From: Moraxella canis
Lineage (GTDB): Bacteria; Pseudomonadota; Gammaproteobacteria; Pseudomonadales; Moraxellaceae
DNA: 33,368 nucleotides
Reading direction: 5' to 3'
Assembly (NCBI RefSeq): GCF_002014965.1
Contig: NZ_MUXT01000003.1
Coordinates: 1 to 33,368 of the forward strand
Part shown: piece by piece, positions 255 to 33,368 of the stretch
Layout of the letters: every line of letters begins with the position of its first letter
Numbering within the stretch: position 1 is the stretch's first letter
Notes under the pieces: model-generated
The model's input: only the letters and a program-made list of their open reading frames with translations
Databases searched by the model: none
What the model was told of the DNA's origin: nothing
Position numbers and translations under genes: made by a program

Positions 255-414
255 TAGGTGATATCGGCGTCACAAAACTTACGAATATGGTTTTTAGCTT
301 GTTAATCTGCTTGTTTGATTAGCTTTTTTGTCAAAGTGATTTGTTTTCAATAGGCTGTACCCCATTGATACACTACCGAGTCGCATAAAACCCATATCAA
401 TAGAATTTTATTTA

Positions 415-433
415 GGGTCTGTATTAGAATAAC
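415..433 (+). repeat. Left terminal inverted repeat of the IS
   Basis: GGGTCTGTATTAGAATAAC pairs imperfectly with the right end at 1109-1128. It sits 20 bases before the likely original transposase start at 454. A separate match to the IS tip (AGGCTGTAC) at 352-360 is too short to call. Confidence 0.6.
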
Positions 434-453
434 TCTCATGTTATACTAGTTTT

Positions 454-1109
454 ATGAAGATAACCCATTGTAAACTCAGTAAAAAAGTACAAAAAAAGGA
501 TGCTTGAATTTTTTTGTACTTGAAGTGACTGCTCGTTCGGCAGCTGATTTGCTTGGTATTCAGCATAATTCAGCAGCTTTATTCTATCACAAAATCAGAC
601 TTGTGATAGAATACCATCTTGATCTTAAGGCTAAAGAATTGTTTGATGGCGAAATAGAGCTTGATGAAAGCTATTTTGGTGGCATTGGCAAAGGCAAGCG
701 TGGTCGCAGAGCTGGTGGTAAAACAGCTGTCTTCGGTCTTTTAAAACGCAACGGTAAAGTCTTTGTGGTTGTGGTTAAAGACACCAAGACTAACACACCA
801 ATGCCTATCATCACAAGCAAAATCAAGCCTGACAGTGTTGTTTATACAGATTGCTATAAAAGCTACAATGCTCTTGATGTTTCTGATTTTAAACACTTTA
901 GAATTAACCATTCCAAAGAATTTGCAAAAGACCATAATCACATCAATGGCATTGAGAATTTCTGGTCGCAAGCCAAGCGTGTTTTAAGAAAGTACAATGG
1001 CATTGACAAGAAACACTTTCATCTTTTTATCAAAGAATGTGAGTGTCGTTTTAACTATGGTACACCCTCTAATCAGTTTAAAGTATTGAGAAGATGGTGT
1101 GGGATTTAG
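454..1109 (+). pseudogene. ISXO2-like transposase, frame-broken at the 5' end
   Basis: This is a DDE transposase of the IS1595 family. The main frame from about 489 to 1109 carries LDESYFGG, the KGKRGRRAGGK basic stretch, AVFGLLKRNGKV, VYTDCYKSY, FRINHSKEF and HINGIENFWSQAKR, all typical of IS1016-like enzymes. The expected N-terminus (MKITHCKLSKKVQKK) is encoded from ATG 454 in another frame, which ends at TGA 505-507. Compared with related proteins as I remember them, two single-base insertions (in the GG at 498-499 and the T run at 509-515) would explain the break. The junction also contains A_AAA_AAG (492-498), a classic -1 slippery heptamer in the correct register, so a programmed frameshift cannot be excluded. 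A TTG at 504 is open but would remove the N-terminus. Confidence 0.75.
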
Positions 1110-1128
1110 GCTAATCTAGTACAGCCTC
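1109..1128 (-). repeat. Right terminal inverted repeat of the IS
   Basis: GGCTAATCTAGTACAGCCTC begins on the last base of the transposase stop codon and is an imperfect inverted copy of 415-433. Confidence 0.65.
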
Positions 1129-11848: not shown

Positions 11849-11849
11849 T

Positions 11850-16804: not shown

Positions 16805-16874
16805 AAGACCTCTTATCATGGTTGCAATGAAAATATGAATAATAAGATCATTATCCAAAATAAAGAGTCTGTTC

Positions 16875-16914: not shown

Positions 16915-16930
16915 GAGAGTATCTTAGGAT

Positions 16931-16966: not shown

Positions 16967-17005
16967 AATGGCACAGTATTTTATTATTGTTATTATTGGT
17001 ATTAC

Positions 17006-18498: not shown

Positions 18499-18499
18499 C

Positions 18500-20038
18500 T
18501 TAAGACTCCCAAGTCTGTACAGTGTCAATCATGTCACGACGATTGGATTTTCTTTGTCCGAACATATTGACATCATTGCTGCCACCACAGCCCGTACCGA
18601 AACTAAAACCACAGCCATTGCGTTCAGCAAAGGCATCACTCATCGCTTCTTCACGATGCGCCGTTGGAATGACAAAGCGATCTTCATAATTGGCGATCGC
18701 CAAATAGCGATACATTTCATCGACTTGGTGCTTGGTTAAGCCCACTGCATCAAGCACAGCTTTAGCATCTTGTTTCTCAACAAGCTCAAGGCGCTTATAG
18801 CTACGCATGGCTAGCAGGCGCTTAAGTGCTAAGCGAACAGGCTCTTCATCACCTGCGGTGAGCATATTAGCAAGATATTTTAATGGGATGCGCAGACTGT
18901 CCACATCAGGAATGAGTCCATCCATACCCACTTGCCCAGCTTCGGCAGCGTTTTGAATGGGTGATAACGGTGGTACATACCATACCATCGGTAAAGTACG
19001 ATATTCTGGGTGCAACGGTAAAGCAAGCTTCCAATCCATCGCAAGCTTATAGACAGGAGATTTTTGGGCGGATTCAATCACGCTCATCGGTACGCCATCT
19101 TTCAGGGCTTGCTCAATGACAGTGGGATCGTTGGGATCCAAAAAAACATCCAGCTGAGCTTGATATAACTCTTTTTCGTTTTCCACACTAGCGGCGGTCT
19201 TGATTTTATCAGCGTCATATAAAAGCACACCCAAATACCGAATGCGGCCAACACAGGTTTCAGAACAAATGGTCGGCTGACCTGATTCAATGCGCGGATA
19301 ACAAAAAATACATTTTTCAGATTTGCCTGACTTCCAGTTATAATAAATTTTTTTATAAGGACAGCCAGATATACACATCCGCCAGCCACGACATTTTTCT
19401 TGATCAATAAGAACAATGCCATCTTCTTCACGCTTATAAATTGCTCCAGATGGGCATGATGCCACGCATGTTGGGTTTAGACAATGTTCGCAAAGACGCG
19501 GCAGATACATCATAAAGGTATTTTCGTACTGACCATAGATATCCGCTTGCACATTATCAAAGTTTTTATCAATTCGGCGTTTGGCAAATTCAGAGCCTAA
19601 AATCTCCTCCCAGTTTGGACCCCATTCAATTTTTTGCATTCTTTTGCCCGTTATTAAAGAACGAGGGCGTGCTATCGGCTGATGCTCGCCAATCGGTGCA
19701 GATTGAAGATGCTGATAATCAAAATCAAACGGTTCGTAATAATCATCTATCGATGGCAAATCAGGATTGGCAAAAATATTGGCAAGAATGCGGAATTTGC
19801 CACCAATTTTAGGGTTAATTGTCCCATTGGCATTGCGAATCCAGCCACCTTTCCATTTAGCTTGGTTTTCCCATTCTTTGGGATAGCCGATACCGGGCTT
19901 GGATTCTACGTTGTTAAACCATGCGTATTCCATACCCTCACGGCTGGTCCAAACGTTTTTACAAGTTACAGAGCAAGTATGGCAACCAATACATTTGTCA
20001 AGGTTTAGCACCATGCCCACTTGAGAACGAATTTTCAT
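18500..20038 (-). CDS. narH: Respiratory nitrate reductase beta subunit NarH
   Basis: This electron-transfer subunit of 512 residues carries four iron-sulfur clusters. ATG 20038 is chosen, with GAGG nine bases before it. The first Cys group is C16, C19, C22 and C26 (CIGCHTCSVTC). Further groups are CEHCLNPTCVASCP, CRGWRMCISGCP with the Trp that marks the 3Fe-4S cluster, and CIFC ... CSETCVGR. It connects NarI to NarG. It is separated from narG by an unusually long 99-base gap holding two hairpins. Confidence 0.97.
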   Translation of the reverse strand: MKIRSQVGMVLNLDKCIGCHTCSVTCKNVWTSREGMEYAWFNNVESKPGIGYPKEWENQAKWKGGWIRNANGTINPKIGGKFRILANIFANPDLPSIDDYYEPFDFDYQHLQSAPIGEHQPIARPRSLITGKRMQKIEWGPNWEEILGSEFAKRRIDKNFDNVQADIYGQYENTFMMYLPRLCEHCLNPTCVASCPSGAIYKREEDGIVLIDQEKCRGWRMCISGCPYKKIYYNWKSGKSEKCIFCYPRIESGQPTICSETCVGRIRYLGVLLYDADKIKTAASVENEKELYQAQLDVFLDPNDPTVIEQALKDGVPMSVIESAQKSPVYKLAMDWKLALPLHPEYRTLPMVWYVPPLSPIQNAAEAGQVGMDGLIPDVDSLRIPLKYLANMLTAGDEEPVRLALKRLLAMRSYKRLELVEKQDAKAVLDAVGLTKHQVDEMYRYLAIANYEDRFVIPTAHREEAMSDAFAERNGCGFSFGTGCGGSNDVNMFGQRKSNRRDMIDTVQTWES

Positions 20039-20052
20039 ATTAATTTTCCTCA

Positions 20053-20070
20053 ACCTAGCAAAAGCTAGGT
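20053..20070 (-). promoter_or_regulatory. Hairpin abutting the narH ribosome binding site
   Basis: ACCTAGC, AAAA, GCTAGGT forms a 7-bp stem with a 4-base loop. On the mRNA it ends just before the GAGG of narH, so it could modulate narH translation or protect a processed 5' end. Confidence 0.6.
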
Positions 20071-20098
20071 AAAATGTGTCATTGAGTATAGTACCTAC

Positions 20099-20126
20099 TT
20101 TGGCAGAATTTCTTTATTCTGCCAAA
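20099..20126 (-). promoter_or_regulatory. Hairpin just after narG
   Basis: TTTGGCAGAAT and ATTCTGCCAAA form a perfect 11-bp stem with a 6-base loop. It lies 12 bases after the narG stop codon. No T run follows on the minus strand, so it is more likely an mRNA-stabilising or attenuating structure than a full terminator. Confidence 0.7.
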
Positions 20127-20137
20127 GAGCGTGCGCA

Positions 20138-23100
20138 TCAGTCTAAAGTAGTAGGTAATGGCTGTGGCAGACTGTCGTCTGGCTTGCCTTCTAGCCAGTC
20201 AATATTCGCCATTTTACGCACCACAACAAACTCATCTCGGTTGCATCCCACTGTGCCATAATAGTTAAATCCATAACTTTGTTGTGCATAACCGCCAATC
20301 ATGTGCGTCGGTTTTAAGATCGCGCGCGTCACAGAGTTATGAATACCGCCACGCGTACCTGAATTTTCAGAACCTGGGATATTGACTAGCTTTTCTTGAG
20401 CGTGATACATCATGGTCATTCCTTCTTTGACACGCTGTGAGACGACTGCTCGAGCGGTAATGGCGCCGTTATGGTTAAACACTTCAATCCAGTCATTATC
20501 CACAATACCTGCCTTCTTGGCATCAATTTCGCTCATCCACACAATTGGACCGCCACGACTTAGGGTAAGCATAAGCAGGTTTTCAGAATAGGTTGAATGG
20601 ATACCCCATTTTTGATGCGGCGTTAAGAAGTTCAGCACAATCTCTTTATTGCCATTGGACTGATAGCGTGTTAATGCTTGTGTAGCACGCGTGTCAATCG
20701 GTGGGCGATACTGCTGCATCTGTTCACCAAACGCCTGCATCCAAGGATGGTCTTGATAAAATTGCTGACGACCCGTAATTGTACGCCACGGTATCAGCTC
20801 GTGCACATTGGTATAGCCTGCGTTGTAACTCACCTTATCAGACTCAAGACCTGACCATGTCGGACTTGAGATGATCTTTCTTGGCTGTGCAACGATATCA
20901 CGGAAGCGTATTTTTTCATGCTCAGATGACTTAGCAAGATGTGTGTGATCTCGTCCTGTATTTTTTGACAAATCTGCCCATGCTTTGACTGCCACATGAC
21001 CATTGGTTTCGGGAGCCAGCATCAAAATCGTCTCGGCTGCGTCAACTGCGGTATCAATGCGTGGGCGACCGTGGGCGATGGTGTTTTCGGTAACGGTGTA
21101 GTTTAATGCCGCCAAATTGCCAACTTCTTCTTTGGTATCCCATGTAATACCTTTTGAGCCATTGCCCAAGGTGTCCATGAGACCGCCTAGAGACGTAAAT
21201 TTAGCATAAGTTGCTGGATAATCACGCTCCACTACCTTGATATGTGGACAGTTGATGCCTGGTACAGGGCGCTCGCCTGCGGTTTTCCAATCCGTACCGC
21301 CAAAGGGCTGAGCAAGTTCAGCAGGACTGTCGTGCTGCATTGGCAAGGTGACAATGTCGGTCTCGACACCCAAATGACCATGCGTTAGTTCGGAAAACTT
21401 TTTGGCGATGCCTTTATAAATTTCCCAATCAGTTTTGGATTCCCAAGCTGGATCGGTCGCCGCCGTCAAAGGGTGAATGAACGGATGCATATCCGAAGTA
21501 TTCATATCGTCTTTTTCATACCAAGTGGCGGTTGGTAAGACGATGTCTGAATATAGGCAGGTGCTAGACATTCTAAAATCCAGAGTGGTCACCAGATCAA
21601 GCTTGCCTGTTGGTGCATTATCTACCCAATCCACTTCATTTGGACGGATACCACCATGCACCGTTTCTTCACCCAAAATACCATGTTTGGTACCCAGCAG
21701 GTAATGCAGCATATATTCATGCCCTTTGCCTGATGAGCCAAGCAAGTTTGAACGCCAAATAAACAAATTTCTAGGGAAATTAGCTGGATTATCAGGACTT
21801 TCTGCTGCAAAGCGTATTGAACCATTCTCAAGACCATTGACCACATAAGTTTCAGCATCACCAGAGGCTTTGGCAGCGCGCCCAATCGCCAAGGGATTTT
21901 GATTCAGTTGTGGCGCAGACGGTAGCCACCCTGCGCGCTCAGCACGGATATTGTAATCAAGCATATGTTCAGGGAACTGCGCTTTATTGGCATGAGGTGA
22001 AAGAATTTCATGCGCAGAGACTTTTTCATGACGCCATTGACTTGAGTGATTATAAAAAAAGCTTGTACCATTCATATGGCGCGGCGGTCTATGCCAATCT
22101 AGAGCAAATGCTAAAGGTGCCCAACCTGTTTGCGGACGCAATTTTTCTTGACCGACATAGTGCGCCCAGCCGCCACCAGACTGCCCAATACAGCCACACA
22201 AAATCAGCATATTGATGACACCACGATAATTCATATCCATGTGATACCAGTGGTTCATACCAGCGCCAATGATAATCATGGACTTGCCATGGGTTTTGTG
22301 AGCATTTTCTGCAAATTCGCGTGCGATCTGGATGACTTTTTCGCGGCTTACACCAGTGATAGCCTCTTGCCATGCTGGCGTGCCTGCCACAGTTGAATCA
22401 TTATAATCATCGGTGACATGCTGACCGCCCATGCCGTTATCCACGCCCAGATTGGCAAGCATCAAATCAAATACGGTAACCACTTTGGCAGTCTCACCGT
22501 TAGCCAAAGTCAATGTACGACAAGGTAAGGTCTTGTATTGAATGTCATCGCCTTGAGCAGATGTAAAGTATGGATGTTCACCACCGCCAAAATAATCCAA
22601 GCCAACCAAAACGGTTTCGCCTGAATCTTTTTGAGATAACTGCAAAGTAACTTCGCTATTATTTTTACCCTCTTTGTTTTCAAGGTTCCAACGACCAGAC
22701 TCACCCCAGCGATAGCCAATAGAACCAATCGGTGAAACAAGCTCACCATTTTGATCAAGCGCAACAGTCTTCCATTCAGGATTATTATCTTGACCTAAAT
22801 GATCTATTAGATCAGAAGCTCGCAAGAATCGACCTGCATGAGCTGATTTACCCTCACCTTCAATCATAACAAGCATCGGCAAGTCGGTATATCGGCGCGC
22901 ATAATTTAAGAAATAATCGCTTGGCTGCTTTAAATAAAATTCTTTAATAATTACATGGCAAAAGGCTTGGGCAAGAGCGGCATCGGTACCTTGTTTTGGA
23001 TTGAGCCACAAATCGCACAGCTTGGCAATCTCGGCATAGTCAGGGGTGATGGCAACGGTTTTGGTGCCTTTATAGCGCACTTCCGTAAAAAAGTGAGCAT

Positions 23101-23890
23101 CAGGAGTACGAGTTTGCGGTACGTTTGAGCCCCAAGCAATGATATAATCTGAATTATACCAATCGGCGGCTTCAGGTACATCAGTTTGCTCGCCCCATGT
23201 CATTGGAGAAGCGGGTGGCAAATCACAGTACCAATCATAAAACGATAAGCAAGCTCCACCAATTAAGGATAAATAGCGGCTGCCAGCAGCATAGCTCACC
23301 ATACTCATGGCAGGGATGGGCGAAAAACCAATAATGCGGTCAGGTCCAAACGTCTTAGCAGTATAAACATTACTTGCAGCAATGATTTCAAAAACCTCAT
23401 TCCAACTAGAGCGCACAAATCCGCCCAAACCACGCTTGGACTTATACTGCGCAGTCTTATTAGGATCGCTGACAATACTACCCCACGCTTCAACTGGATC
23501 TGTATATTTAGTACGCGCTTCTCGCCAAAGCTTTAGTAAAGGTTTACGCACTTTTGGGTATTTGAGACGATTGGCAGAGTACATATACCAACTATAACTG
23601 GCACCACGTGGACAGCCGCGCGGTTCGTGGTTAGGCAAATCTGGGCGAGTGCGCGGATAATCGGTTTGCTGGGTTTCCCAAGTCACCAAGCCATTTTTAA
23701 CATAGATTTTCCATGAGCATGAGCCAGTACAGTTGACACCATGGGTTGAGCGGACAACTTTGTCATATTGCCAGCGATTACGATAAAAATTCTCCCAGTC
23801 ACGGCTTTCATCACGGACTTCACCATGTCCGTCGGCATATTCACCCGTTTTTTTCTTAAAGAAACGAAATTGGTCGAGTAAGTGGCTCAT
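20138..23890 (-). CDS. narG: Respiratory nitrate reductase alpha subunit NarG
   Basis: This is the catalytic subunit of 1250 residues, holding bis-MGD and the FS0 cluster, and it reduces nitrate to nitrite at the cytoplasmic face. FS0 ligands are H50, C54, C58 and C93 (HGVNCTGSC and RGCPRG). The molybdenum ligand is D223 in YDWYCDLPP. The match to NarG is continuous to the C-terminus (THMIGGYAQQSYGFNYYGTVGCNRDEFVVVRK). GAGGAAAG lies before the start ATG. The 160 bases upstream contain no clear FNR box, so its promoter could not be fixed; part of its transcription may come through the carbonic anhydrase gene. Confidence 0.98.
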   Translation of the reverse strand: MSHLLDQFRFFKKKTGEYADGHGEVRDESRDWENFYRNRWQYDKVVRSTHGVNCTGSCSWKIYVKNGLVTWETQQTDYPRTRPDLPNHEPRGCPRGASYSWYMYSANRLKYPKVRKPLLKLWREARTKYTDPVEAWGSIVSDPNKTAQYKSKRGLGGFVRSSWNEVFEIIAASNVYTAKTFGPDRIIGFSPIPAMSMVSYAAGSRYLSLIGGACLSFYDWYCDLPPASPMTWGEQTDVPEAADWYNSDYIIAWGSNVPQTRTPDAHFFTEVRYKGTKTVAITPDYAEIAKLCDLWLNPKQGTDAALAQAFCHVIIKEFYLKQPSDYFLNYARRYTDLPMLVMIEGEGKSAHAGRFLRASDLIDHLGQDNNPEWKTVALDQNGELVSPIGSIGYRWGESGRWNLENKEGKNNSEVTLQLSQKDSGETVLVGLDYFGGGEHPYFTSAQGDDIQYKTLPCRTLTLANGETAKVVTVFDLMLANLGVDNGMGGQHVTDDYNDSTVAGTPAWQEAITGVSREKVIQIAREFAENAHKTHGKSMIIIGAGMNHWYHMDMNYRGVINMLILCGCIGQSGGGWAHYVGQEKLRPQTGWAPLAFALDWHRPPRHMNGTSFFYNHSSQWRHEKVSAHEILSPHANKAQFPEHMLDYNIRAERAGWLPSAPQLNQNPLAIGRAAKASGDAETYVVNGLENGSIRFAAESPDNPANFPRNLFIWRSNLLGSSGKGHEYMLHYLLGTKHGILGEETVHGGIRPNEVDWVDNAPTGKLDLVTTLDFRMSSTCLYSDIVLPTATWYEKDDMNTSDMHPFIHPLTAATDPAWESKTDWEIYKGIAKKFSELTHGHLGVETDIVTLPMQHDSPAELAQPFGGTDWKTAGERPVPGINCPHIKVVERDYPATYAKFTSLGGLMDTLGNGSKGITWDTKEEVGNLAALNYTVTENTIAHGRPRIDTAVDAAETILMLAPETNGHVAVKAWADLSKNTGRDHTHLAKSSEHEKIRFRDIVAQPRKIISSPTWSGLESDKVSYNAGYTNVHELIPWRTITGRQQFYQDHPWMQAFGEQMQQYRPPIDTRATQALTRYQSNGNKEIVLNFLTPHQKWGIHSTYSENLLMLTLSRGGPIVWMSEIDAKKAGIVDNDWIEVFNHNGAITARAVVSQRVKEGMTMMYHAQEKLVNIPGSENSGTRGGIHNSVTRAILKPTHMIGGYAQQSYGFNYYGTVGCNRDEFVVVRKMANIDWLEGKPDDSLPQPLPTTLD

Positions 23891-24050
23891 TTTGCTTTCC
23901 TCGTTGTTGTAAAAAGAGCTTAGCTGGCTAGCGACAATCGAAACACCAAGCTAACATTAATTATAAAAATTTATTGGTTACCTAACTATTGCCTAAATGG
24001 CTATCATTAGATACTTCTTTGGGTGTAGTCGAATGACTGCTTTAATTTTA

Positions 24051-24683
24051 TTAATGCGAATAGATAAATGCCGATGCCAGCTGTTGTGCATTACTAATAC
24101 TCACGCCCAAATCCTCAATCAGCCCACTATTCATGTCATAAATCCAGCCATGTACCGAAAGTTGTCTGCCTTGATACCAAGCATTTTGCACTATGGTAGT
24201 ATGGCAAACATTAGTGACCTGACGCTTAACATTGATTTGGCATAATAAATCAAGCTCCTCTTCATCAGTTAAGCCCTCAAAAGCCTCACGATATTGGTAA
24301 CGCATTCCTTTCAACGGTCTCAGCCAATTATCTATCAAACCATATTCTTGTTGGCTAAGCGCCGCTTTAACGCCGCCGCAACCATAGTGACCACATACGA
24401 TAATATGCTCAACCCTAAGTACATCTACCGCAAACTGTAACACTGATAACAAATTCATATCAGTTGAAACCACCATATTTGCGACATTGCGGTGCACAAA
24501 AAGCTCTCCTGGCATGACGCCTACCACTTCATTGGCGGGCACACGACTGTCAGAGCAGCCGATCCATAAATATTTGGGTGACTGCGCCTTTGAGAGTCTT
24601 GGAAAATAGTCAGGATCACGCGCTGTCAGTGACTGCGCCCAATATTGGTTGTTATTTAACAAATCACTTAATGTTACATGCAT
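24051..24683 (-). CDS. can: Beta-class carbonic anhydrase
   Basis: This zinc enzyme of 210 residues interconverts carbon dioxide and bicarbonate. The zinc ligands are C43, H99 and C102, and the catalytic dyad is D45-R47 (CSDSRVPA, CGHYGCGGV). MPGELFVHRNVAN and QFAVDVLRVEHIIV are also typical. ATG 24683 follows GGGGG; a GTG at 24689 is also in frame. It lies just upstream of narG on the same strand. Its link to nitrate respiration is not evident from sequence. Confidence 0.93.
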   Translation of the reverse strand: MHVTLSDLLNNNQYWAQSLTARDPDYFPRLSKAQSPKYLWIGCSDSRVPANEVVGVMPGELFVHRNVANMVVSTDMNLLSVLQFAVDVLRVEHIIVCGHYGCGGVKAALSQQEYGLIDNWLRPLKGMRYQYREAFEGLTDEEELDLLCQINVKRQVTNVCHTTIVQNAWYQGRQLSVHGWIYDMNSGLIEDLGVSISNAQQLASAFIYSH

Positions 24684-24758
24684 ACACACCCCCAGAATTG
24701 ATTTGGTTTTAGCATAAACCAGTTGTCAACACCTAGCTATGCTCTAAATGGTTAAGAC

Positions 24759-24808
24759 ACTACCCTAAAGTAGTAAGCTTGGCTGACTGCTTTCTACCTA
24801 AGTATACT
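24759..24808 (+). promoter_or_regulatory. Promoter of the Crp/Fnr gene with upstream palindrome
   Basis: TTGGCT (24779-24784) and TATACT (24803-24808) are 18 bases apart. The inverted repeat ACTACCCTAAAGTAGT (24759-24774) sits just upstream of the -35 element. It resembles the palindrome before narX (ACTAC-N6/7-GTAGT). Confidence 0.5.
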
Positions 24809-24866
24809 ATGGCTAATATCTGTAAATATTTACAATACCTCAATCTAATTTGCCCACTCTTTAGCC

Positions 24867-25643
24867 ATGAAAAAACTGTATGATGAAAAAAAGATTGTTT
24901 ATCTTCAGCGCTTAGGCTGCCATCCTATTTTTGCGACAACCAATAAGAAACTTTCAATTTCAGCAGCAACGATTCACTACTACCCCAAAGGCAGTTTGAT
25001 TTATTTGCAATATGCTAAAGTGCGTTATTTATATTTTTTATTAGACGGTGCAATCCATTGCTATCGTCAGCAGCCCAATGGTCAAGAAAGCCTAATAAAC
25101 AGATTTGATACAAATAAAACTCATATCCATCAGGTGCAGATGATCAATGAAAGCCTGCCTAATTTAAAAGTAGATGAGTGTGATGAAAAACAAGATGAGA
25201 TGCTTGCGTATAATCAATATAACTCGTTTGGAAAAAATAGCTGCCATCAGTTAACCGCCAAAGCTTCACAAAATAGCTATGTTGCCATTTTACCCATTCA
25301 TGAGATAAAGAAAACATTCAACAACTCGTCTTTAGCTACGATATTTACTTGGTATGCAGAGCAGATGTATGAGCAAATCTCGACACAGTTTTTATTGTAT
25401 GATTTATTAAGTCTGAAAACTTCACAAGCGAAAGTAGCTTATTATCTGTTATGTCATGCTGATGACAACGGCAAAGTAGAGATACCCATGAGTCAAAAAA
25501 ATCTAGCAGGCCTACTGAGTATCCGTGCTGAAACACTCAGCCGAACTTTGCGATTTTTGATAAATCAGCAAATTATCAGCGTAAATGGTGCACAATACAC
25601 TATTTTAAAATCCGAACACCTAGAACAGATGGTGGAGCAATGA
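24867..25643 (+). CDS. Crp/Fnr-family regulator, DNR-like
   Basis: This transcription factor has 258 residues. A cyclic-nucleotide-type beta barrel (about 34-150) is followed by a dimer helix and a winged helix. The recognition helix contains ETLSR (222-226), the E-xx-SR pattern that reads TTGAT half-sites in FNR and DNR. The Cys cluster that binds the FNR iron-sulfur centre is absent; only C18 lies in the N-terminus. A polar insertion of about 40 residues (about 80-122) interrupts the barrel and is unusual for the family. Proximity to nnrS suggests an NO-responsive DNR/NnrR role. The perfect box before narK1 is a plausible target. Confidence 0.8.
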   Translation: MKKLYDEKKIVYLQRLGCHPIFATTNKKLSISAATIHYYPKGSLIYLQYAKVRYLYFLLDGAIHCYRQQPNGQESLINRFDTNKTHIHQVQMINESLPNLKVDECDEKQDEMLAYNQYNSFGKNSCHQLTAKASQNSYVAILPIHEIKKTFNNSSLATIFTWYAEQMYEQISTQFLLYDLLSLKTSQAKVAYYLLCHADDNGKVEIPMSQKNLAGLLSIRAETLSRTLRFLINQQIISVNGAQYTILKSEHLEQMVEQ

Positions 25644-25698
25644 CCACACAAACGCTATTTCATTTTTGATGAGATGATATTTTAAAAAATAGTGATTT

Positions 25699-25738
25699 AA
25701 TCAGCAGATTACTTTTTTAATCAGCAGATTACTTTTTT
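25699..25738. repeat. Two tandem copies of a 20-bp unit
   Basis: AATCAGCAGATTACTTTTTT occurs twice without a gap, directly upstream of nnrS. It may be a recent duplication of promoter DNA; each copy adds about two helix turns. No clear FNR/DNR box is present here. Confidence 0.85.
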
Positions 25739-25769
25739 GACAATCGTAATAACAATTCAAAGATTCGCC

Positions 25770-27035
25770 ATGCTTATGAATATCCAAAACACCGCCAAAC
25801 GCCCAACATCTCCCCATCCCATTTTAAATTTGGGTTTTCGCATATTTTTTGTGGGTTCGGCGGTGTTTGCTGCGATAAGTATGCTGCTTTGGCTGGTGAT
25901 ATTACAAGGCTTTGCTCCTTTTCAAGGAGTGGTTTCGCCCTTTTATTGGCATGGTCATGAGATGGTGTTTGGTTATGCTTTGGCAGTGATTGCAGGGTTT
26001 TTATTAACGGCAGTCAAAACATGGACAAATCAGCCCATGCCTTATGGCTGGCATTTGGGGGCGATATTTGGGGCGTGGGCAGTATCTCGCTTGATTTGGC
26101 TTGGGCTTCATGCCACACCTAGCATTGCCCTGTTTGTGGCGGCTTTTGTATTTGACATGATATTTTGGGGCATGACCACTTTTGCTGTCATCAAAGCGGT
26201 GTGGGCTGTTCGCCAAAAACGTCAAATTGGCATCATTGCCAAACTTGTTCTTTTGACTGTTGCCAGCGTTGCTTTTTATGTGGGCGTGCTGATAAATCAT
26301 CACGGCACACAGCAAATCGCCTTATATTTTGCCTTATATTTGGTGATTGGCGTGGTGTTTACCATTGCACGGCGTGTTTTGCCATTTTTTATTACCAAAG
26401 GCATCAGCGTCAATCATGATGGCACACCAAATGGCATACAGCTTGAACAAAAAAACTCCAATCTACTGGACAAGCTCAATTTATTTGGCTTTTTTGGATT
26501 TATCATTTTTGATTTGTTCATCAAACAGCCTATGATGGCTGGCGTGTGTGCGTTAGTATGTTTGGTGGCTAATTTGGCACGCCTAAACAACTGGTATCAC
26601 CACGCCATCTGGCAAAAGCCCCTGCTGTGGTCGCTCATCATCGCGTTTTTTGGCATGACAGTCAGTTTGGCGATGTTTGTGCTTTATCCGATTGCCACGC
26701 AGTTAAATTGGTTTGGCTCTGTTAATATCCACACGCTTGGACTACATGGTTTGGCGGTGTTTGGCATTGGGCTGATGACGATTGCGATGATGGCTCGGGT
26801 GTCGCTTGGGCATACTGGCAGAAATATCCATCAGCCCCCTGCCACTGTGTCATTAATGTTCATGTTGATGATTTTGTGTGGCATATTTCGTGTGGTCTTA
26901 CCGCTATTTTTTAATGATAGTTATATGCCGCTCATGTTATTATCACAAGTATTGTGGATAGCGTCTTTTGTGATATTTTGTCTTTGTTATGTGGGCATCT
27001 TAGTAAAACCAAGAACCGATGGGCTGTTTGGATAA
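25770..27035 (+). CDS. nnrS: NnrS family membrane protein
   Basis: This is a heme/copper-containing membrane protein of about 421 residues and 12 hydrophobic segments. NnrS proteins are linked to NO metabolism and relief of NO stress in denitrifiers. Matches include PFYWHGHEMVFGYALAVIAGFLLTAVKTWT, IGVVFTIARRVLPFF, NIHTLGLHGLAVFGIGLMTIAMMARVSLGHTGR and several conserved His. ATG 25770 is taken as the start, with ATG 25776 also possible; both lack a strong ribosome binding site. It is the last gene of the nitrate block. Downstream sequence is decayed and foreign. Confidence 0.9.
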   Translation: MLMNIQNTAKRPTSPHPILNLGFRIFFVGSAVFAAISMLLWLVILQGFAPFQGVVSPFYWHGHEMVFGYALAVIAGFLLTAVKTWTNQPMPYGWHLGAIFGAWAVSRLIWLGLHATPSIALFVAAFVFDMIFWGMTTFAVIKAVWAVRQKRQIGIIAKLVLLTVASVAFYVGVLINHHGTQQIALYFALYLVIGVVFTIARRVLPFFITKGISVNHDGTPNGIQLEQKNSNLLDKLNLFGFFGFIIFDLFIKQPMMAGVCALVCLVANLARLNNWYHHAIWQKPLLWSLIIAFFGMTVSLAMFVLYPIATQLNWFGSVNIHTLGLHGLAVFGIGLMTIAMMARVSLGHTGRNIHQPPATVSLMFMLMILCGIFRVVLPLFFNDSYMPLMLLSQVLWIASFVIFCLCYVGILVKPRTDGLFG

Positions 27036-27117
27036 TGCAAATAAATATTTAGATATCCATTTATAAAACCAACTTACAACCACAACACTTATCATGTGTC
27101 AAACATGAAAAGTAAGT

Positions 27118-27308
27118 ACGCTATCAACGTTAAACCTAAGATTGTATTCGTTGATAAAAGATAAAAGCTTTCGAGTACATACCGTTGCATTTTCTAGCCA
27201 TTTGATTTAGTAGCTTACAATCAAAATTTTCAACACCTTTGATATGATTGTTTTCTTTTTGCAAATTCTTTTGCTTGATTCATTTTTAAAATGCTTAAAA
27301 TGAATAAC
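27118..27308 (-). pseudogene. Decayed IS1595-family transposase remnant
   Basis: Translating the minus strand across frames gives EVIHFKHFK, then MNQAKEFAK, then NNHIKGVENF, then KCNGM and KAFYLFINEYNLRFN. These align in order with FKHFRINHSKEFAK, HNHINGIENF, KYNGI and HFHLFIKECECRFN of the transposase at 454-1109. Several frameshifts and stops separate the pieces. It is the 3' half of an old copy that ends against the tRNA-Gly terminator. It lies in inverted orientation relative to the left IS, on the other side of the nitrate genes. Confidence 0.75.
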
Positions 27309-27312
27309 TTCA

Positions 27313-27350
27313 ACAAAAAAAAGCCCAAATCTTTCGATTTGAGCTTTTTA
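27313..27350 (-). terminator. Terminator behind the tRNA-Gly 3' end
   Basis: On the minus strand AAAGCTCAAATC, GAAA, GATTTGGGCTTT forms a 12-bp stem (one G-U pair) followed by a T run. It directly follows the tRNA 3' end, as expected for the original tRNA transcript. Confidence 0.85.
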
Positions 27351-27355
27351 AAATT

Positions 27356-27400
27356 TGGAGCGGGAAACGAGATTCGAACTCGCGACCCCAACCTTGGCAA
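27356..27400 (-). tRNA. tRNA-Gly(GCC) 3' fragment, probable attachment-site scar
   Basis: Read on the minus strand, the fragment starts with the anticodon loop TTGCCAA. It continues with GG, the variable region and the T arm (GCGAG-TTCGAAT-CTCGT), then the acceptor strand TTCCCGC, discriminator T and CCA. The D arm, 5' acceptor strand and 5' anticodon stem are missing; the preceding bases are unrelated. It therefore cannot be a working tRNA. Such 3' halves are what integrases leave when an element inserts into a tRNA 3' end. By orientation the element lies at higher coordinates, and the native downstream chromosome is the nitrate block. Confidence 0.85.
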
Positions 27401-27924
27401 TCTCGGGCGACTATTTTTCACCGAATAACCTTATTTTAACTTAAATAATCTCTTTATATATCAATATCTTATGATTATTATCAGTGTGGATGCTGATTGC
27501 ACGCTTTGATGTCTTTTTATTTATTGGCACGAAAAAAAATAGGATAAATTTACCCCATCATTTTTCGTATTTTATCATAATTTTAAATTTTTTGCCCTTG
27601 TGCCTGCTGATGAAAGTTGCAGGTATTGATGGATTTGAATTATTTTAATTTTATATTTTCTATTTAATAATATTAAACTTTTTTATTCAAATCTTGTAAA
27701 TTGTCAGTTTGGTTTGGGATTTAATATGCCAATTTTGCGGTGATTGATGGTGTTATTCACCGCATATTTTGCGGAGAATATGTGGTATATAACCGCAGAT
27801 GAGGTGAAATTGAGTGGAGGTGGTTGATGTTTATATTCATAAATATTTAAATTAGATGGAAGCGACAAATTACGATAAAATAAGATAAAATACGATAAGT
27901 TGCGACATTTTATGGAAAATAACG
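27401..27924. other. AT-rich non-coding region with hairpins and short repeats
   Basis: No gene is supported in this stretch of more than 500 bases. TGCGGTGA (27736-27743) pairs with TCACCGCA (27757-27764), and CCGCA-TATTT-TGCGG (27760-27774) forms an overlapping alternative. At about 27870-27900, three 10-base units of the form TA(C/A)GATAA(A/G) follow each other, flanked on both sides by GCGACA. These lie just before the Fic gene and may belong to its regulation. Confidence 0.5.
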
Positions 27925-29175
27925 ATTAAATTACCCAAGCCACCTACTTTATCAGAACTAGAAGCGAGTGATATTTCATCTGTGCTTTTGAGATATTTGT
28001 CAGAACACCCACCAACAGATGCCAAGGGGCGTTATTTGTCACGGGAGCAGTTTCGCTATCGTCACCCAACTGACAGCAAACGGCGTTGGCTTGCTCAAAG
28101 ACTCAACCGTCACGCCATTATGCAGTCGATGTCTATTGGTGGTTATCAATTCTCGTATTGCTTACCACAAAGCCTGCAAGCCAAGCTATATTACATTGAG
28201 CATCACTATCACCAATGGCAATGGTCTATTGATACCGATGAGCTACTCTTTGAAGAGCCGATTACCAGTGCTCAGCTTGAAGGTGCATCTACCACACGCA
28301 AGGTTGCCAAAGAGTTACTCGGCAGTCGCCGTGCATCTATGAATAAAAGCGAGGTGATGATTGTCAATAATTATCACTTGATGCAAGCAGTGAAACAATA
28401 AATAAATCAACCGCTTGACATCACTATGATTTTGCAATTGCATCAAATCGCCACAGAGGGTGCGATTGACAATGATGCGATTTCGGGTGAATTTCGCCAA
28501 GATGATGAGATTGTCATTGCTGATTATCATGGGCAAATTGTTCATCAGCCCCCTGCATGGCAGACGCTACCCGTATTGATGCAGGCGTATTGCGATTTTG
28601 CTAATGCCGATCATCAAGGGGATGACTTTATCCATCCGATTGTCAAAGCGATTATTCTGCATTTTCTACTCGGCTTTATTCATCCTTTTGGTGATGGTAA
28701 TGGTAGAACTGCCCGAGCTTTGTTTTATTGGTCACTACAAAAATCAGGCTATACGCATTTTGATTATATCTCCATCAGTCGCTTATTGTACAAAGCACCC
28801 AAACAGTATGCGCAAAGCTATATTGATGTAGAAACTGATGAATTGGATATGACTTATTTTATTGCTTATCAGCTCACTATCATTGACCGCGCTATTAACG
28901 ATTTACAGGCGTTGCTATCGATTGACCAAGCGCCACAATCTATGCCAAAATCCGTACCTGCAAATCCGGCTGTTGATTATAGTAGTCTTAGCATCCATCA
29001 GTATCAGCTACTCACAAATACGCCAGCTGACCAAGTGTTGACTGCCAAACAAGTGTCTAATGAGCTTGGCATCTCAGATAGTACCGCTCGTAAGCTACTC
29101 AATGAACTTGAGAGTATGGGATTGGCAACCACTGTGCGTAATGGTCGTGGTAAGGGGTATTTGTTGGTGAGGTAG
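27925..29175 (+). pseudogene. Fic family AMPylase-type gene with ATT start and internal TAA
   Basis: The single frame from 27925 to 29175 would encode about 416 residues. Its start codon position is ATT, aligned with the ATG of a related 5' fragment at 30701, and GGAAAA lies at usual spacing before it. An in-frame TAA at 28399-28401 then cuts the protein after AVKQ, and the frame resumes with INQPLDITMILQLHQIATEGA. The N-terminal inhibitory motif SAQLEG (about 115-120) and the catalytic motif HPFGDGNGRTAR (about 253-264) are intact, and a winged-helix domain ends the protein. GTG 27982 and ATG 28426 give two shorter open pieces. It is probably a recent pseudogene; this family modifies proteins by nucleotidyl transfer. 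Confidence 0.85.
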
Positions 29176-29248
29176 GATTGATGTTGTCTTTAAGTGCTTT
29201 AATTAAAGGTATGTTTTGCATGGTTTGAGATTTTGGTGTACCGGTGCA

Positions 29249-30460
29249 TCATCCACCCAAAATCTCTCTCAAAAATACCCTCAAACTCAAACACTGTATC
29301 CCTTCAAAAGTATTGCCGTCAAATTCGTCCATTGTCACCACATATTTCGGGTAGTTGTCTTGGATTTTCAGCAGGTTGCCAAATTCTCGCTCAAGCGTTT
29401 TTTCTTCATTAATGGTCAGTGCGGCCTGCACATAAATACGTTCGCCATTACTCTCTGCTACAAAGTCAATTTCTTGGCTATTTAAACCGCCGATTTTGAC
29501 ATCATAACCTGCAATTTGAAGATGATTGAATATGCAGTTTTCAAGCAATTTGCCACGATCTTGTACCCGATAGCCAATCAGGGCGTTTCGCAAACCTAAA
29601 TCTTCAAAATAGTATTTTTCGCCAATCTCAAAAATGCGTTTACCTTCAATATCATAGCGTGGTACTTTGTGAATTAAAAAGGCGTTGGCAAGATATTCCA
29701 CATAATTTTGTACCTGCATGCTTGATGTGGTAATTTTCTGCGATTTTAAAAAATCAGAGATTTTTTTGGCGGAAAACAGATTGCCAATATTGCTTGCTAA
29801 AAATTGCGTAAGTTGCTCTAAAAATTGCACATTTCGTAACGCATAGCGGTTCACAATATCCCGAATGGCAATGGTGGAATAGATATTCCTCAGATATTCA
29901 AACACGATGTTGTCTTGCAACGGCAAGTCTTTCAAATAAGGCAAACCGCCATATTTCAAAAACAGCGACATCGATTTATCGCTATCGTCCAGTTTCATAA
30001 ATTCAAGAAATTCAAAATAAGATAGGGAATGGACATTAATTTCAATCGCTCGCCCACTCAGGCTGCCTGCAATATCCCGTGAAAGCAAATGAGCATTGCT
30101 ACCCGTGCAATACAAATCCAATTCGTCATCTAATAAAAGCGAACGCAACGCTTGTTCAAAATCTGTAATTTCTTGAATTTCATCGATAAAAATGTAATTT
30201 TTTTGACCGCTCTTTTTCTGCTCTTGCACAAAATCATTCAGGTTCTCTGCGGTTGTAATGTGACTAAATGCCAAGTCTTCTTTGTTGATATAAATAATGT
30301 GGGCATTTTCATCCACTGTTTGAATCTCTTGCATAATCTGAAACAGCAAATAGCTTTTACCCACACGGCGTTGCCCAGTAAACACTTTAATCAAAGGTTT
30401 TCCGATAAACGGGCGTACCGTTTCAAGGTATTTTTGGCGATAAACTAAATCTTTTTTCAC
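29249..30460 (-). CDS. AAA ATPase with DUF4143 domain
   Basis: This is an intact protein of 403 residues. Walker A is GQRRVGKS (29-36) and Walker B is FIDEIQ (91-96), followed by YCTGSNAHLLSRDIAGSLSGR and the DUF4143 region with a nuclease-fold C-terminus (EIDFVAESNGERIYVQAA). In that C-terminal core the usual E-x-K is replaced by Q-A, so nuclease activity is doubtful. The start is GTG 30460 behind AGGA. Proteins of this AAA_14/DUF4143 type are common in accessory DNA, but their function is poorly known. Upstream lie strong inverted and direct repeats. It converges on the broken Fic gene. Confidence 0.85.
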   Translation of the reverse strand: MKKDLVYRQKYLETVRPFIGKPLIKVFTGQRRVGKSYLLFQIMQEIQTVDENAHIIYINKEDLAFSHITTAENLNDFVQEQKKSGQKNYIFIDEIQEITDFEQALRSLLLDDELDLYCTGSNAHLLSRDIAGSLSGRAIEINVHSLSYFEFLEFMKLDDSDKSMSLFLKYGGLPYLKDLPLQDNIVFEYLRNIYSTIAIRDIVNRYALRNVQFLEQLTQFLASNIGNLFSAKKISDFLKSQKITTSSMQVQNYVEYLANAFLIHKVPRYDIEGKRIFEIGEKYYFEDLGLRNALIGYRVQDRGKLLENCIFNHLQIAGYDVKIGGLNSQEIDFVAESNGERIYVQAALTINEEKTLEREFGNLLKIQDNYPKYVVTMDEFDGNTFEGIQCLSLRVFLREILGG

Positions 30461-30498
30461 GGTAAAATCCTAAAACTATAATTGCTATTTTACCTTAA

Positions 30499-30559
30499 TA
30501 TAGAAAAAGTTTCAATTATACTTTAAACTTTTTCTATACATAAAAAAGTTTCAAGTATA
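30499..30559. promoter_or_regulatory. Operator-like inverted and direct repeats before the AAA ATPase
   Basis: TATAGAAAAAGTTT (30499-30512) and AAACTTTTTCTATA (30525-30538) are a perfect 14-bp inverted repeat with a 12-base spacer. AAAAAGTTTCAATTATA (30504-30520) recurs at 30543-30559 with one change, 39 bases away. They lie 40-100 bases before the GTG start, in the promoter zone, and look like a multi-site operator. Confidence 0.7.
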
Positions 30560-30700
30560 AAATAATTATCCAATGGTAAATTGTATGGAATGATTTGGGG
30601 CAAATTGATGGATTGTTTCTTTAAATCTGCATCGCTACGCACATGATCTAGGGTATGCAATACGCTACTAGCAAATTTAGATAATTTACGTCAAATTGCG

Positions 30701-30760
30701 ATGAAGTTGTCTAAGCCTCCCACTTTATTGGAGCTAGAAATGCGGGATATGGATTGGTAA
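30701..30760 (+). pseudogene. 5' fragment of a second Fic gene
   Basis: ATG 30701 opens a 19-codon frame, MKLSKPPTLLELEMRDMDW, then stop. It matches the beginning of the Fic gene at 27925 (IKLPKPPTLSELEASD). The similarity ends after about 16 codons, so this is a remnant of a paralogue, left after deletion of the rest. The remainder of 30561-30800 shows no gene. Confidence 0.65.
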
Positions 30761-30803
30761 AGTGAGGTTGATATCGCTTTTAAGCGTTTTGATCAAAGGG
30801 TGT

Positions 30804-31367
30804 TCACCTCCCCACCTCCTGCAAATACCCAAAACGATAAAACGGCTCACGGTAATCATGGTACAGCTTTCTTAAATTTACCGTATCTCGGCAAAACATA
30901 GCCGTGCGTATATTTATTCGATAGACATCTAGGCAGGTGCGTAATGAGCCGATGAAATCTTTGGTTTCAGGTGATTGGAGATTGGATGGTTGATATAAAC
31001 ACTCAACATTATCCAGTATTAACAAATATCGCTGATTACCTGAGATAATTTGCTCAAATACAACTCTGAGAGAATAACAGCTATCTGCTTGATTGGGGCA
31101 AACAGCTGCAATCATGTGGGTCAAAAAATGCTGATAAATAGATGCTTGCACATCAGCAAAGTCATAATAAATCACATGGATGTCAGTATCTTTAGACAGT
31201 CTTTCCAAGACTTGCTTATATTCATCCAATCGATACAAATACACATCATCACTGCTATAAAACACAGCAGTATCTAATATCCCTTCACAAAAGGCATCAA
31301 AGATACGTGTTGGTAGGTCTTTTATGGGTTTTTGGATTGTCATATATTTGATGGCTATCTCAATCAT
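30804..31367 (-). CDS. ATPase-like protein lacking Walker A, probably truncated
   Basis: This protein of 187 residues is translationally coupled to the antitoxin-like gene (ATGATTGA overlap). The second half resembles STAND/AAA NTPases: RYLLILDNVECL (113-124) is a Walker B-like strand, and GSLRTCLDVYRINIRTAMFCRD followed by EPFYRFG resembles the downstream sensor region. Where a P-loop should be, the sequence is LDTAVFYSSDDVYLYRLDEY, with no GK(S/T). Relatives as I remember them continue well past FYRFG, so the stop at YLQEVGR suggests loss of the C-terminus, next to the deleted Fic fragment. Function is unknown. ATG 31343 is a possible alternative start. Confidence 0.6.
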   Translation of the reverse strand: MIEIAIKYMTIQKPIKDLPTRIFDAFCEGILDTAVFYSSDDVYLYRLDEYKQVLERLSKDTDIHVIYYDFADVQASIYQHFLTHMIAAVCPNQADSCYSLRVVFEQIISGNQRYLLILDNVECLYQPSNLQSPETKDFIGSLRTCLDVYRINIRTAMFCRDTVNLRKLYHDYREPFYRFGYLQEVGR

Positions 31368-31572
31368 CTACAGATGCGTACGCTGTCATTTGTGCATAAA
31401 TAAATTCAGGTACCATGCAAAATTTAGGCTCTCCATCTTTTATAATCGCAATCACATCTTTTTCGACAACTTCCATCCAGTAATCAAAATTCTCTTCTAA
31501 CTCTGATAACTCGATGTAGTGTTTGGGTGCATAGTCTTGAAGTGTTAGCTTTTGGGTGCTTGCTTGTTCCAT
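31360..31572 (-). CDS. Small antitoxin-like protein (Phd/YefM-like)
   Basis: This protein of 70 residues includes HYIELSELEENFDYWMEVVEKDVIAIIKDGEPKFCMVPEFIYAQM. The pattern of a short DNA-binding-like N-terminus, ENFDYW, and 'I-I-K-D-G-E-P' followed by a hydrophobic strand resembles Phd/YefM antitoxins. AGGAAA precedes the ATG at 31572. It overlaps the ATPase-like gene by eight bases, as antitoxin and toxin genes often do, but that partner is not a known toxin. Confidence 0.6.
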   Translation of the reverse strand: MEQASTQKLTLQDYAPKHYIELSELEENFDYWMEVVEKDVIAIIKDGEPKFCMVPEFIYAQMTAYASVDD

Positions 31573-31608
31573 ATGAGTTTCCTTTTTTATGTTGTGATGG
31601 TTCTAAGG

Positions 31609-31876
31609 TTATTTGAAATGGGCTGTTTTGGCAAGCTGTTGCTCATAGGTATTTTGCAAGTCCAGCCAAAATCTAGGGCTGTTGCCAAAATACTGTGCCA
31701 AACGCAAAGCGGTGTCTACATAAATACCACGCCGTTCACTGATAGATATCATTAAGATGGTCAGGTGCAACGCCCAAAGCCTTTGATAAAGAAGCTTCTG
31801 ACAATGCCAAAGGTTTTAAATATTCTTCACGCAGTATCTCACCCACGTGAATCGGTCTCATGCTGTTGTTGGACAT
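31609..31876 (-). pseudogene. higA: HigA-type antitoxin gene, frameshifted
   Basis: ATG 31876 with GGAG before it opens MSNNSMRPIHVGEILREEYLKPLALSEASLSKALGVAPDHLNDI. A single extra T, in AATGATATCTATCAGTG near 31745, then shifts the frame to a stop at 31738-31736. The other frame continues correctly: ISERRGIYVDTALRLAQYFGNSPRFWLDLQNTYEQQLAKTAHFK, ending at 31609. This is a complete HigA/VapI helix-turn-helix antitoxin apart from one base. No HigB toxin gene is seen upstream on the minus strand. Confidence 0.85.
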
Positions 31877-32336
31877 AGGCACTCCATGATGTTATCGCGT
31901 AGGTAGTAATTAGTAAGTATTTGCAGTCTGGGTAGTAATTGCCTGTCCCTTGGCGTATTTTACCATAATTAATTAACAATAATGATCTAATAGATAAAAT
32001 TCATGCTGATGTATAACTGCGTGAGCAAACAGATGGAGATTGTTATCACCATGTGGAGTTTTTTTAAAGAATCTAAGACGTCCGATTTATTTTACAGTTT
32101 GTTTTACCCAATGAGTGGTTCATGCTGTCCAGAAGGTCATATTTATTCTTCGTTGCGACAAAGTAGTAAAAATGAAAGAAGACCAACTTCCCGAGAAATG
32201 CAGAAGGTTGGTTCTTGACCAAACTCTCATCTTAATCTTAACCTAGTGTCTAAGAATTGGGATTGGCTTGCCTAGCGGTTTTAATTGAAGCTTTACTTAT
32301 TTACAATAAATTGCCTTTATAGTTGATATATTGTTG
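31877..32336. other. Intergenic region without a supported gene
   Basis: The region is AT-rich. A 71-codon open frame at 32003-32218 (+) has no recognisable domain, and its first half lacks a convincing ribosome binding site. Imperfect inverted arms AAGACCAACTT (near 32178) and AAGGTTGGTTCTT (near 32204) could form a bulged hairpin. Direct repeats of GTAGTAATT occur near 31903 and 31931. No HigB remnant was found. Confidence 0.4.
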
Positions 32337-33299
32337 CTAATTCAGCGCGGCATTTTGATCTTTATATGAATCTTTATAAAATACAGGTGGAATATGCACG
32401 TATTTCTCAAATTCCTGTATTACTTCCCTAAAGATTTTGTCAGTATTATCTTCACTTACATATTCGTTAAATTCATTTTTTGTACTGTGAAAAACTTGAC
32501 CATTGATAATACTTGTACCATCCAATGATGCAGGAAATAGTTTTATCATTGTGGCTCTACCACAATCGAGATATTTCCCTAAAATTTTGGCATCAGTTAC
32601 ACTTGGATCAACCAGTTTGTAATCTTCTTTATACATATTTGCAATATACTGAAAACTATTCTCTCCCTCAAGAATCTTAATATCACTTAAATACTTGAAT
32701 AAAAAAAGTTCAACAAAAGTATATAATGAAATTTTTGCAGATGCGAATGTTAGATTAACTAGAATTTTATTGATTTTTTGAGCTAGTGAAGTTGGGTCTA
32801 AGTATTCTTTTTTTAGAATCTTGTCATTAAATTCACTTATTGATAGTGAAATATTATGGATAAGATTAGCAATTTCTTTATCATTTGTTCCAGGTTGAAT
32901 CTGAACATTGATTCGATTGCCATTTTCATCAAGTATAAAATTTCCTGTTTGAGGGTTTACCCAAATAAACTCACCCCCATCACTAACAATATAAATTCTG
33001 CTGTGTAGAGCTTTAGCCACTTCGATATTTTGAGCAATAGCATTACGAATATCCATTTCTTTTTTAAATTTCTCTGGGATTTTTTGTTCAACATATATAA
33101 TAATATTTTTATTGTTATCTAAAATTAGCACATCAGGCTTTTTATCTAACAGAGTTTTTTTAAGCGAAAAACGATTAATATATTTACCGCTCATTAGTGC
33201 TCTAACAGTCGTTTCACCCAAGCCGAAACATTCATACTTGTCAAGAATTTTTAAGTTTTTCGTGTACAATTCATTCTGGATTAATTGTTCAGATGGCAT
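32337..33299 (-). CDS. N-terminal part of a restriction-modification protein, probably truncated
   Basis: This protein has 320 residues; the start ATG 33299 follows GAGGGG. The first 110 residues look like a PD-(D/E)xK nuclease: KPDVLIL with D56, then IIIYVEQK with E71 and K73, and a long helix of the HsdR_N type. The region LVNLTFASAKISLYTFVELFLFKYLSDI (about 181-208) resembles the helical N-terminal domain of HsdM-type adenine methylases. Fused type IIG or type I-like enzymes continue with the SAM-binding motifs, but none appear before the stop. The C-terminus KDQNAALN is probably a junction. Restriction type is uncertain. Confidence 0.55.
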   Translation of the reverse strand: MPSEQLIQNELYTKNLKILDKYECFGLGETTVRALMSGKYINRFSLKKTLLDKKPDVLILDNNKNIIIYVEQKIPEKFKKEMDIRNAIAQNIEVAKALHSRIYIVSDGGEFIWVNPQTGNFILDENGNRINVQIQPGTNDKEIANLIHNISLSISEFNDKILKKEYLDPTSLAQKINKILVNLTFASAKISLYTFVELFLFKYLSDIKILEGENSFQYIANMYKEDYKLVDPSVTDAKILGKYLDCGRATMIKLFPASLDGTSIINGQVFHSTKNEFNEYVSEDNTDKIFREVIQEFEKYVHIPPVFYKDSYKDQNAALN

Positions 33300-33348
33300 G
33301 ACTCAACCCCTCAATTACTTGCAAGGTTGATGTGAAAAGAATTACACT

Positions 33349-33368
33349 TGTGCTGTGCTGTGCTGTGC
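33349..33368. repeat. TGTGC pentanucleotide tract at the window edge
   Basis: Four perfect tandem copies of TGTGC run to the last base of the window, so the true length is unknown. The tract starts 50 bases before the restriction-modification gene. On that strand it reads GCACA repeats, possibly at the 3' end of an upstream frame. Confidence 0.8.

Follow-up and report, generated by a model that had tools for sequence, protein, structure and literature searches.

Organization of the locus

The window, i.e. the whole stretch of 33,368 nucleotides of Moraxella canis DNA that was analysed, carries from left to right an IS1595-family element, a nar block, nnrS, a remnant of an IS1595-family element, a fragment of a tRNA-Gly(GCC) gene with its terminator region, and a Fic-family module, an AAA_14/DUF4143 ATPase gene and a short ORF (Table 1). 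In the nar block the NarG, NarH and MoaA proteins reach the NCBIfam cut-offs and a MoeA-like protein falls just below. The closest relatives of the NnrS protein are in Moraxella (best match 77% at the amino acid level), and its gene ends about 270 bp before the terminator region. The intervening IS1595 remnant was recovered with blastn (E = 7e-14 to an IS in the relative G019 and 1e-11 to the window's own IS) and with tblastn (E = 1e-4); the copy at the other end of the nar block is inverted relative to it.

Table 1. Features of the window considered in this study
Positions	Strand	Feature	Basis
411..1126	+	IS1595-family element flanking the nar block opposite nnrS	Pfam DDE_Tnp_IS1595
25737..27035	+	nnrS, gene on the terminator side of the fragment	Pfam NnrS
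~27129..27313	-	IS1595-family remnant between nnrS and terminator	blastn/tblastn
27309..27355	-	tRNA terminator region; in G009 both island ends carry it together with the fragment	G009 end repeat; fold
27356..27400	-	Displaced 3' tRNA-Gly(GCC) fragment, anticodon loop to CCA, attR core	Sequence identity; 5' half absent
27401..27856	.	Terminal AT-rich island end adjoining attR	91-92% to G009, G016, G023, G019
27863..29238	+	Fic-family module, broken into two ORFs (27982-28401, 28426-29175)	93% nt to relatives; Pfam
29249..30460	-	AAA_14/DUF4143 ATPase, candidate defence gene (PADLOC PDC-S01)	98% aa to G019 copies
30470..30582	.	AT-rich inverted-repeat spacer beside island modules	Recurrence in relatives
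30804..31367	-	Short conserved ORF, marginal BrxF similarity (E = 9e-4), no Pfam match	
31368..31944	.	Island DNA conserved in G019	Window 30803-31944 at 90% to G019
31945..33368	.	Probable further accessory DNA with a 320-aa ORF (32337-33299, -)	Short matches only in 22 genomes

A displaced 3' fragment of tRNA-Gly(GCC)

On the minus strand the fragment reads TTGCCAAGG...CGCTCCA, a sequence of 45 nt that occurs once in the window and corresponds to the last 45 nt of tRNA-Gly(GCC), starting at the anticodon loop (TTGCCAA) and ending at the CCA. Immediately before the TTGCC the window shows AGTCGCCCGAGA, whereas intact genes display TAGAGCACAACC (or CGACC), and the DNA replacing the 5' half is AT-rich, with 29% GC over 27401-27862 versus 42% over 1432-27035. 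ARAGORN predicted no tRNA in the window and Rfam likewise recovered nothing at gathering score in it. The weaker Rfam matches over the fragment, all below the gathering score, were rejected as chance matches, mostly to the terminator hairpin. This terminator-like hairpin lies behind the fragment, and it accounts for most of the predicted folding of 27309-27400 (-32.4 kcal/mol, z = -4.0). The first-pass annotation, which had described a fragment extending only from the anticodon loop to CCA with a terminator behind it, was exact in both coordinates and orientation, and its view that unrelated AT-rich DNA has taken the place of the 5' half is borne out by the GC content and the ARAGORN result.

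Searches of 22 Moraxella genomes (designated below by handles such as G009) with the fragment and terminator as query recovered matches in 20 of them, and as these relatives are found down to E = 3e-37 a chance origin of the fragment is excluded. The 45 nt are identical in 33 of the 38 other copies compared, which comprise 28 intact genes and 10 fragments, a damaged fragment in G019 being below the search cut-off and therefore excluded. Copies devoid of the 5' half were typed by the foreign sequence preceding the TTGCC. The window type (AGTCGCC..AGA or close to it) is also present in G009, G016 and G023, twice in G017, and in a damaged form in G019. A second type (..CTGACA) was recovered in G011, G010, G016 and another contig of G009, while the fragment in G024 belongs to neither type; partial copies in G015 (damaged) and G020 (at a contig end) were left outside these classes.

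Across independent assemblies the break in these displaced 3' fragments falls at the same base. A deletion can create tRNA fragments and the window is one contig, and one might accordingly invoke an integrase-independent event in which a second tRNA-Gly gene decayed or was partly duplicated, or else an assembly error; nevertheless, given the recurrence of the fixed break point with the same foreign end in independent assemblies, and the identical junction between nnrS and the fragment in G017, we consider such an origin scarcely credible. Alternatively, the fragment and its terminator might have been kept as a small RNA, a proposal with which the unchanged 45 nt in 6 of the 10 other fragments compared, and closer agreement among second-type fragments, would be consistent. 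Against this, a single base is lost in G009, several are missing from the G017 copy beside nnrS and there is an internal loss in G019, and there is therefore no clear constraint on the sequence, making retention as a small RNA very unlikely.

Empty and occupied target sites

For the second scar type both states of the tRNA-Gly target could be compared. G018 displays an exopolyphosphatase-like gene, tRNA-Gly, tuf and glmS in a single row, and in G011 the exopolyphosphatase-like gene and tRNA-Gly are in one place and a fragment precedes tuf and glmS in another; tuf and glmS are recognized at the NCBIfam cut-offs, and the exopolyphosphatase-like protein is similar to its model but below the cut-off. 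Upstream of the TTGCC 770 of 800 positions are identical between G018 and the intact side of G011, and downstream of it 1420 of 1501 are identical between G018 and the fragment side of G011. In the crossed comparisons 12 of 13 positions agree on the upstream side and 90 of 91 on the downstream side, where the aligned stretch corresponds to the tRNA end and terminator. Judged by these alignments, G018 is the empty and G011 the occupied state of the second island type, with the switch exactly at the TTGCC.

For the island type of the window, or for its nnrS flank, no empty site was recovered among the relatives in searches with nnrS and with the outer flank of the G016 island. In G010 and G021 the genes of the latter flank are 11-12 kb from tRNA-Gly on its 5' side, in G012 they are about 50 kb from it on its 3' side, and G004, G002 and G009 have them on other contigs; the G016 flank has therefore moved in one lineage or another. 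In G016 an IS1595 copy is situated 24 bp behind the attR terminator, and the arrangement in this genome might be read as an IS1595-linked inversion.

Complete islands, their integrase and site specificity

In contig 24 of G009 an interval of 42.2 kb separates a fragment (430-522) from an intact tRNA-Gly whose repeat is at 42532-42624; both have the same orientation, and the end repeat is 95 bp long with 95.8% identity. Beside the intact tRNA-Gly is a gene for a 393-aa tyrosine integrase combining Arm-DNA-bind_2 and Phage_integrase domains, and the interior of the island codes for a large tyrosine recombinase, a UmuC-like protein and a benzoate/catechol pathway. Of the ten pathway proteins scanned, nine (benA, benB, benC, benD, benE, catechol 1,2-dioxygenase, muconate cycloisomerase, 3-oxoadipyl-CoA thiolase and 3-oxoadipate enol-lactonase) reach the curated cut-off of the matching model, and an aromatic-acid transporter is just under that of its own. 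Stretches homologous to this ben/cat region are also present in G023, G010 and G016. Similarly, an island of G019 extends for 31.1 kb from the damaged fragment to an intact tRNA-Gly with an Arm-DNA-bind_2 tyrosine integrase. A second G019 island, at another tRNA-Gly, encodes a Zorya-like ABCD set and one protein with similarity to type I methylase and specificity proteins; its fragment end was not found in the search with fragment and terminator. The Zorya-like set occupies 11364-18616 of locus L108 (G019, contig 1, about 904-912 kb). In G010 a fragment of the second type and the intact tRNA are separated by 33.2 kb, and in G016 there are two tandem intervals, one of the second type (50.2 kb) and one of the window's type (22.4 kb), with short integrase ORFs (286 and 203 aa).

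The intact tRNA-Gly at the other end has the same orientation as the fragment in G009, G010, G016 and G019; in G017 it is inverted relative to the nnrS-side fragment, and the window ends before reaching it. For the end type of the window the length on the island side varies from 4.3 kb in G017 (measured to an inverted second fragment) through 22.4 kb in G016 and 31.1 kb in G019 to 42.2 kb in G009. We searched the 22 genomes for the integrase at E <= 1e-60 and recovered 12 matches in nine of them, 11 of which have a tRNA-Gly 3' end 0.73-0.96 kb upstream; these 3' ends include one fragment (G016), one damaged copy without a predicted tRNA (G015) and one with a differing terminator (G005). The twelfth match (G002) is 409 bp from a contig end, where an upstream tRNA cannot be judged.

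In light of these observations, a genomic island in tRNA-Gly(GCC) has its attR, the end with the displaced fragment, at 27356-27400. The first-pass annotation had proposed that the fragment marks the end of an integrated element, and had suggested searching for a complete tRNA-Gly(GCC) gene and an integrase at the far end; both were seen in G009 and G019, and the complete islands together with the end shared between relatives uphold the proposal.

Many phages use tRNA genes as integration sites, and integrases of this domain type occur in phages too, which would fit a fragment marking the end of a prophage. On the other side, no phage structural gene was recognized among the island ORFs in a visual inspection and in scans of some of them. 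None of the IMG/VR contigs contains the 41-base junction as an exact pattern, and the integrase has one 24-residue match there; moreover, the 12 phage records matched by window positions 26000-33368 all match at the tRNA/terminator stretch only. A prophage end is hence a very improbable account of the fragment. In the plasmid collection 127 records were matched, and the best 20 of these 127 match at the tRNA/terminator stretch, the Fic module or NnrS.

The decayed island to the right of the fragment

The terminal island end, of about 455 bp, abuts the tRNA-Gly fragment in five other Moraxella genomes, namely G009, G016, G023, G019 and G017, in G017 the copy on the nnrS side matches in pieces, at 74-75% identity, and the other copy at 81%. 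The adjoining Fic module of the window matches stretches that in G009, and likewise in one of the two G019 islands, contain a single ORF of 416 aa, and the Pfam Fic domain was detected only in the second of the two ORF pieces into which it is split in the window. The modules of the window follow in the order Fic, AAA_14/DUF4143 ATPase and short ORF, which differs from that in the relatives: in one G019 island the ATPase precedes Fic, contig 3 of G023 has the ATPase without a Fic of the window kind (which is on another contig of that genome), and contig 24 of G009 has the Fic module and no match to the window ATPase. An AT-rich inverted-repeat spacer is found beside swapped ATPase and Fic modules also in G009 (contig 24, 2603-2699), G019 and G023. 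A DUF4172-Fic gene adjoins the scar in G009, G023 and G019 and is absent from the window.

Thus, the distal end of the island lies to the right, from 27401 to at least 31944, and the element is decayed, because the DUF4172-Fic gene is missing, the remaining Fic is split and 31945-33368 has short matches only. An island on this side of the fragment, with accessory and broken content, had been predicted in the first-pass annotation; both the placement and the content are supported. That annotation had also regarded a lack of length variation to the right, or a complete tRNA-Gly directly to the left in relatives, as evidence against an island; lengths of 4.3 to 42.2 kb were observed, and no complete tRNA-Gly lies directly to the left in G017, the sole relative with the nnrS-fragment junction. 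The window stops before any attL, and the integrase of its own element is not within it. The last positions of the window (33340-33368) form a short tandem repeat of GTGCT and may represent a contig end.

Relationship to known integrative elements

That islands can end in displaced 3' tDNA fragments is well established, and the underlying mechanism is well known. According to the Islander study (PMC4383910), 3760 of 3919 islands have a 3' fragment and 2083 of 3919 use the anticodon-centred site A. The Moraxella islands resemble the tDNA islands described in that study (PMC4383910) in having an intact tDNA at one end and a displaced 3' fragment at the other, a tyrosine integrase, an anticodon-centred site and tandem arrays. 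Unlike them, the window holds one end only.

Catabolic islands of the ICEclc type in other Proteobacteria also target tRNA-Gly, and the Moraxella islands share with them both this target and a cargo for aromatic degradation (ben/cat in G009). They differ in that no conjugation genes, i.e. neither relaxase nor type IV secretion genes, were recovered among the island proteins scanned (a part of the island ORFs), and in the presence of a cluster with a 1014-aa tyrosine recombinase beside the integrase. The latter feature recalls the Gamma-mobile-trio (GMT) islands, in which neighbouring genes, one of them for a large tyrosine recombinase, form a cluster, and which have defence cargo, as is also found in one G019 island. 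No GMT-named family was recovered among the NCBIfam matches, though NCBIfam may hold no GMT models. The cluster near the integrase (locus L094, 1736-7650, minus strand) encodes the 1014-aa recombinase, with five relatives among the matches listed, along with 780-aa and 197-aa proteins without a Pfam match.

Among the papers listed in searches of the literature on Moraxella tRNA-Gly, islands and integrase there was no description of these islands, which does not prove that none has been published. tRNA-Gly(GCC) emerges as a site at which islands recur in Moraxella; their cargo includes benzoate/catechol degradation and candidate phage-defence genes. The island family deserves to be recorded, as does the reshuffled DNA that surrounds it.

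The nitrate-respiration block and the origin of the junction

Among the 22 genomes, only that of the close relative G017 has nnrS adjoining this fragment as in the window. Besides G017, nnrS matches of 1 kb or more are present in 13 of the 22, and they stop by window position 27056, before the terminator. A tRNA-Gly match of any kind is present in 12 of these 13, where it lies on a different contig or no less than 0.28 Mb from nnrS. NarG is present in 9 of the 22 genomes, and nar and nnrS are separated by 0.99 Mb in G016 and 0.65 Mb in G018 (each mostly one contig). The similarity between G017 and the window starts at 402, with identities of 94.5% over 402-14441, 67% over 14527-16692 and 84% over 16929-25846. 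Contig 1 of G017 displays anmK, an intact tRNA-Gly, the integrase, umu-like genes, IS1595 and the nar block, and ends inside nnrS; contig 55 likewise ends inside nnrS, next to which are the damaged fragment, island remnants and a second, inverted fragment, spanning 4.3 kb in total. The unbroken nar-nnrS-fragment sequence of the window joins these two contigs, and the nnrS-side fragment of G017 is therefore inverted relative to the intact tRNA-Gly. Such an arrangement is rejected by the orientation filter of Islander (PMC4383910).

The left side is therefore probably ordinary chromosome that was joined later, rather than the original neighbour of this tRNA gene, and the junction was probably rearranged after integration. 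The first-pass annotation had placed the native chromosome to the left, which is not supported in this simple form: the flank is joined through the IS1595 remnant, the other genomes searched have no tRNA-Gly next to it, and its continuation in G017 leads via another IS1595 copy to the integrase and an inverted intact tRNA-Gly.

Alternatively, the island might lie mainly to the left, with the nar-moa-nnrS block as cargo of a tRNA-Gly island and the fragment as an internal inverted relic of a second element. The G017 order of tRNA-Gly, integrase, umu genes, IS1595 and nar block is suggestive of this, as is the adjacency of nar and nnrS being confined to the window and, across two contigs, G017. 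Conversely, the collinear nar block of G019 is outside the island, on the 5' side of the tRNA gene and about 18 kb away from it, nar is 0.11 Mb (G016) and 0.36 Mb (G018) from the nearest tRNA-Gly match, and with IS1595 at both ends of the nar block recombination between IS copies suffices to explain the arrangement. We accordingly regard an island mainly to the left as unlikely.

We are instead highly confident in an explanation in which the fragment is the attR scar of a tyrosine-integrase tRNA-Gly(GCC) island, with the decayed element to the right, the nar-nnrS block having probably been joined later via IS1595. The island would have integrated by tyrosine-integrase recombination in the anticodon loop of the tRNA-Gly(GCC) gene, its attP copy of the 3' half restoring the tRNA at the other end and the original 3' half and terminator being pushed away to remain at 27309-27400. 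The element of the window is likely to have once possessed the same integrase and an attL beyond the window. Subsequently, the nar-nnrS block may have come to lie on the terminator side of the scar through IS1595 recombination. The inverted orientation of the G017 nnrS-side fragment counts against simple integration. In this regard, one IS1595 copy of G019 is inside the island beside umuC and another, inverted, is found towards nar, about 9 kb past the tRNA gene; recombination between copies so placed would flip the tRNA-integrase arm towards nar and generate the G017 order.

A bolder and rather doubtful extension is that tRNA-Gly(GCC) islands and IS1595 copies jointly serve as rearrangement pads in Moraxella, such that in the lineage of the window and G017 the whole nitrate-respiration block (nar, molybdenum cofactor genes and nnrS) was captured between an integrase-bearing end and an inverted attR scar and may be movable cargo. 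More generally, the locus illustrates that a displaced tRNA fragment can remain recognisable even though other DNA has taken the place of its original flank; island finders based on orientation would discard such a case. On contig 3 of G023 (23985-24150) a fragment is followed by about 165 bp matching the integrase-side leader of G009 and then by a MurU-like gene, constituting another rearranged attR.
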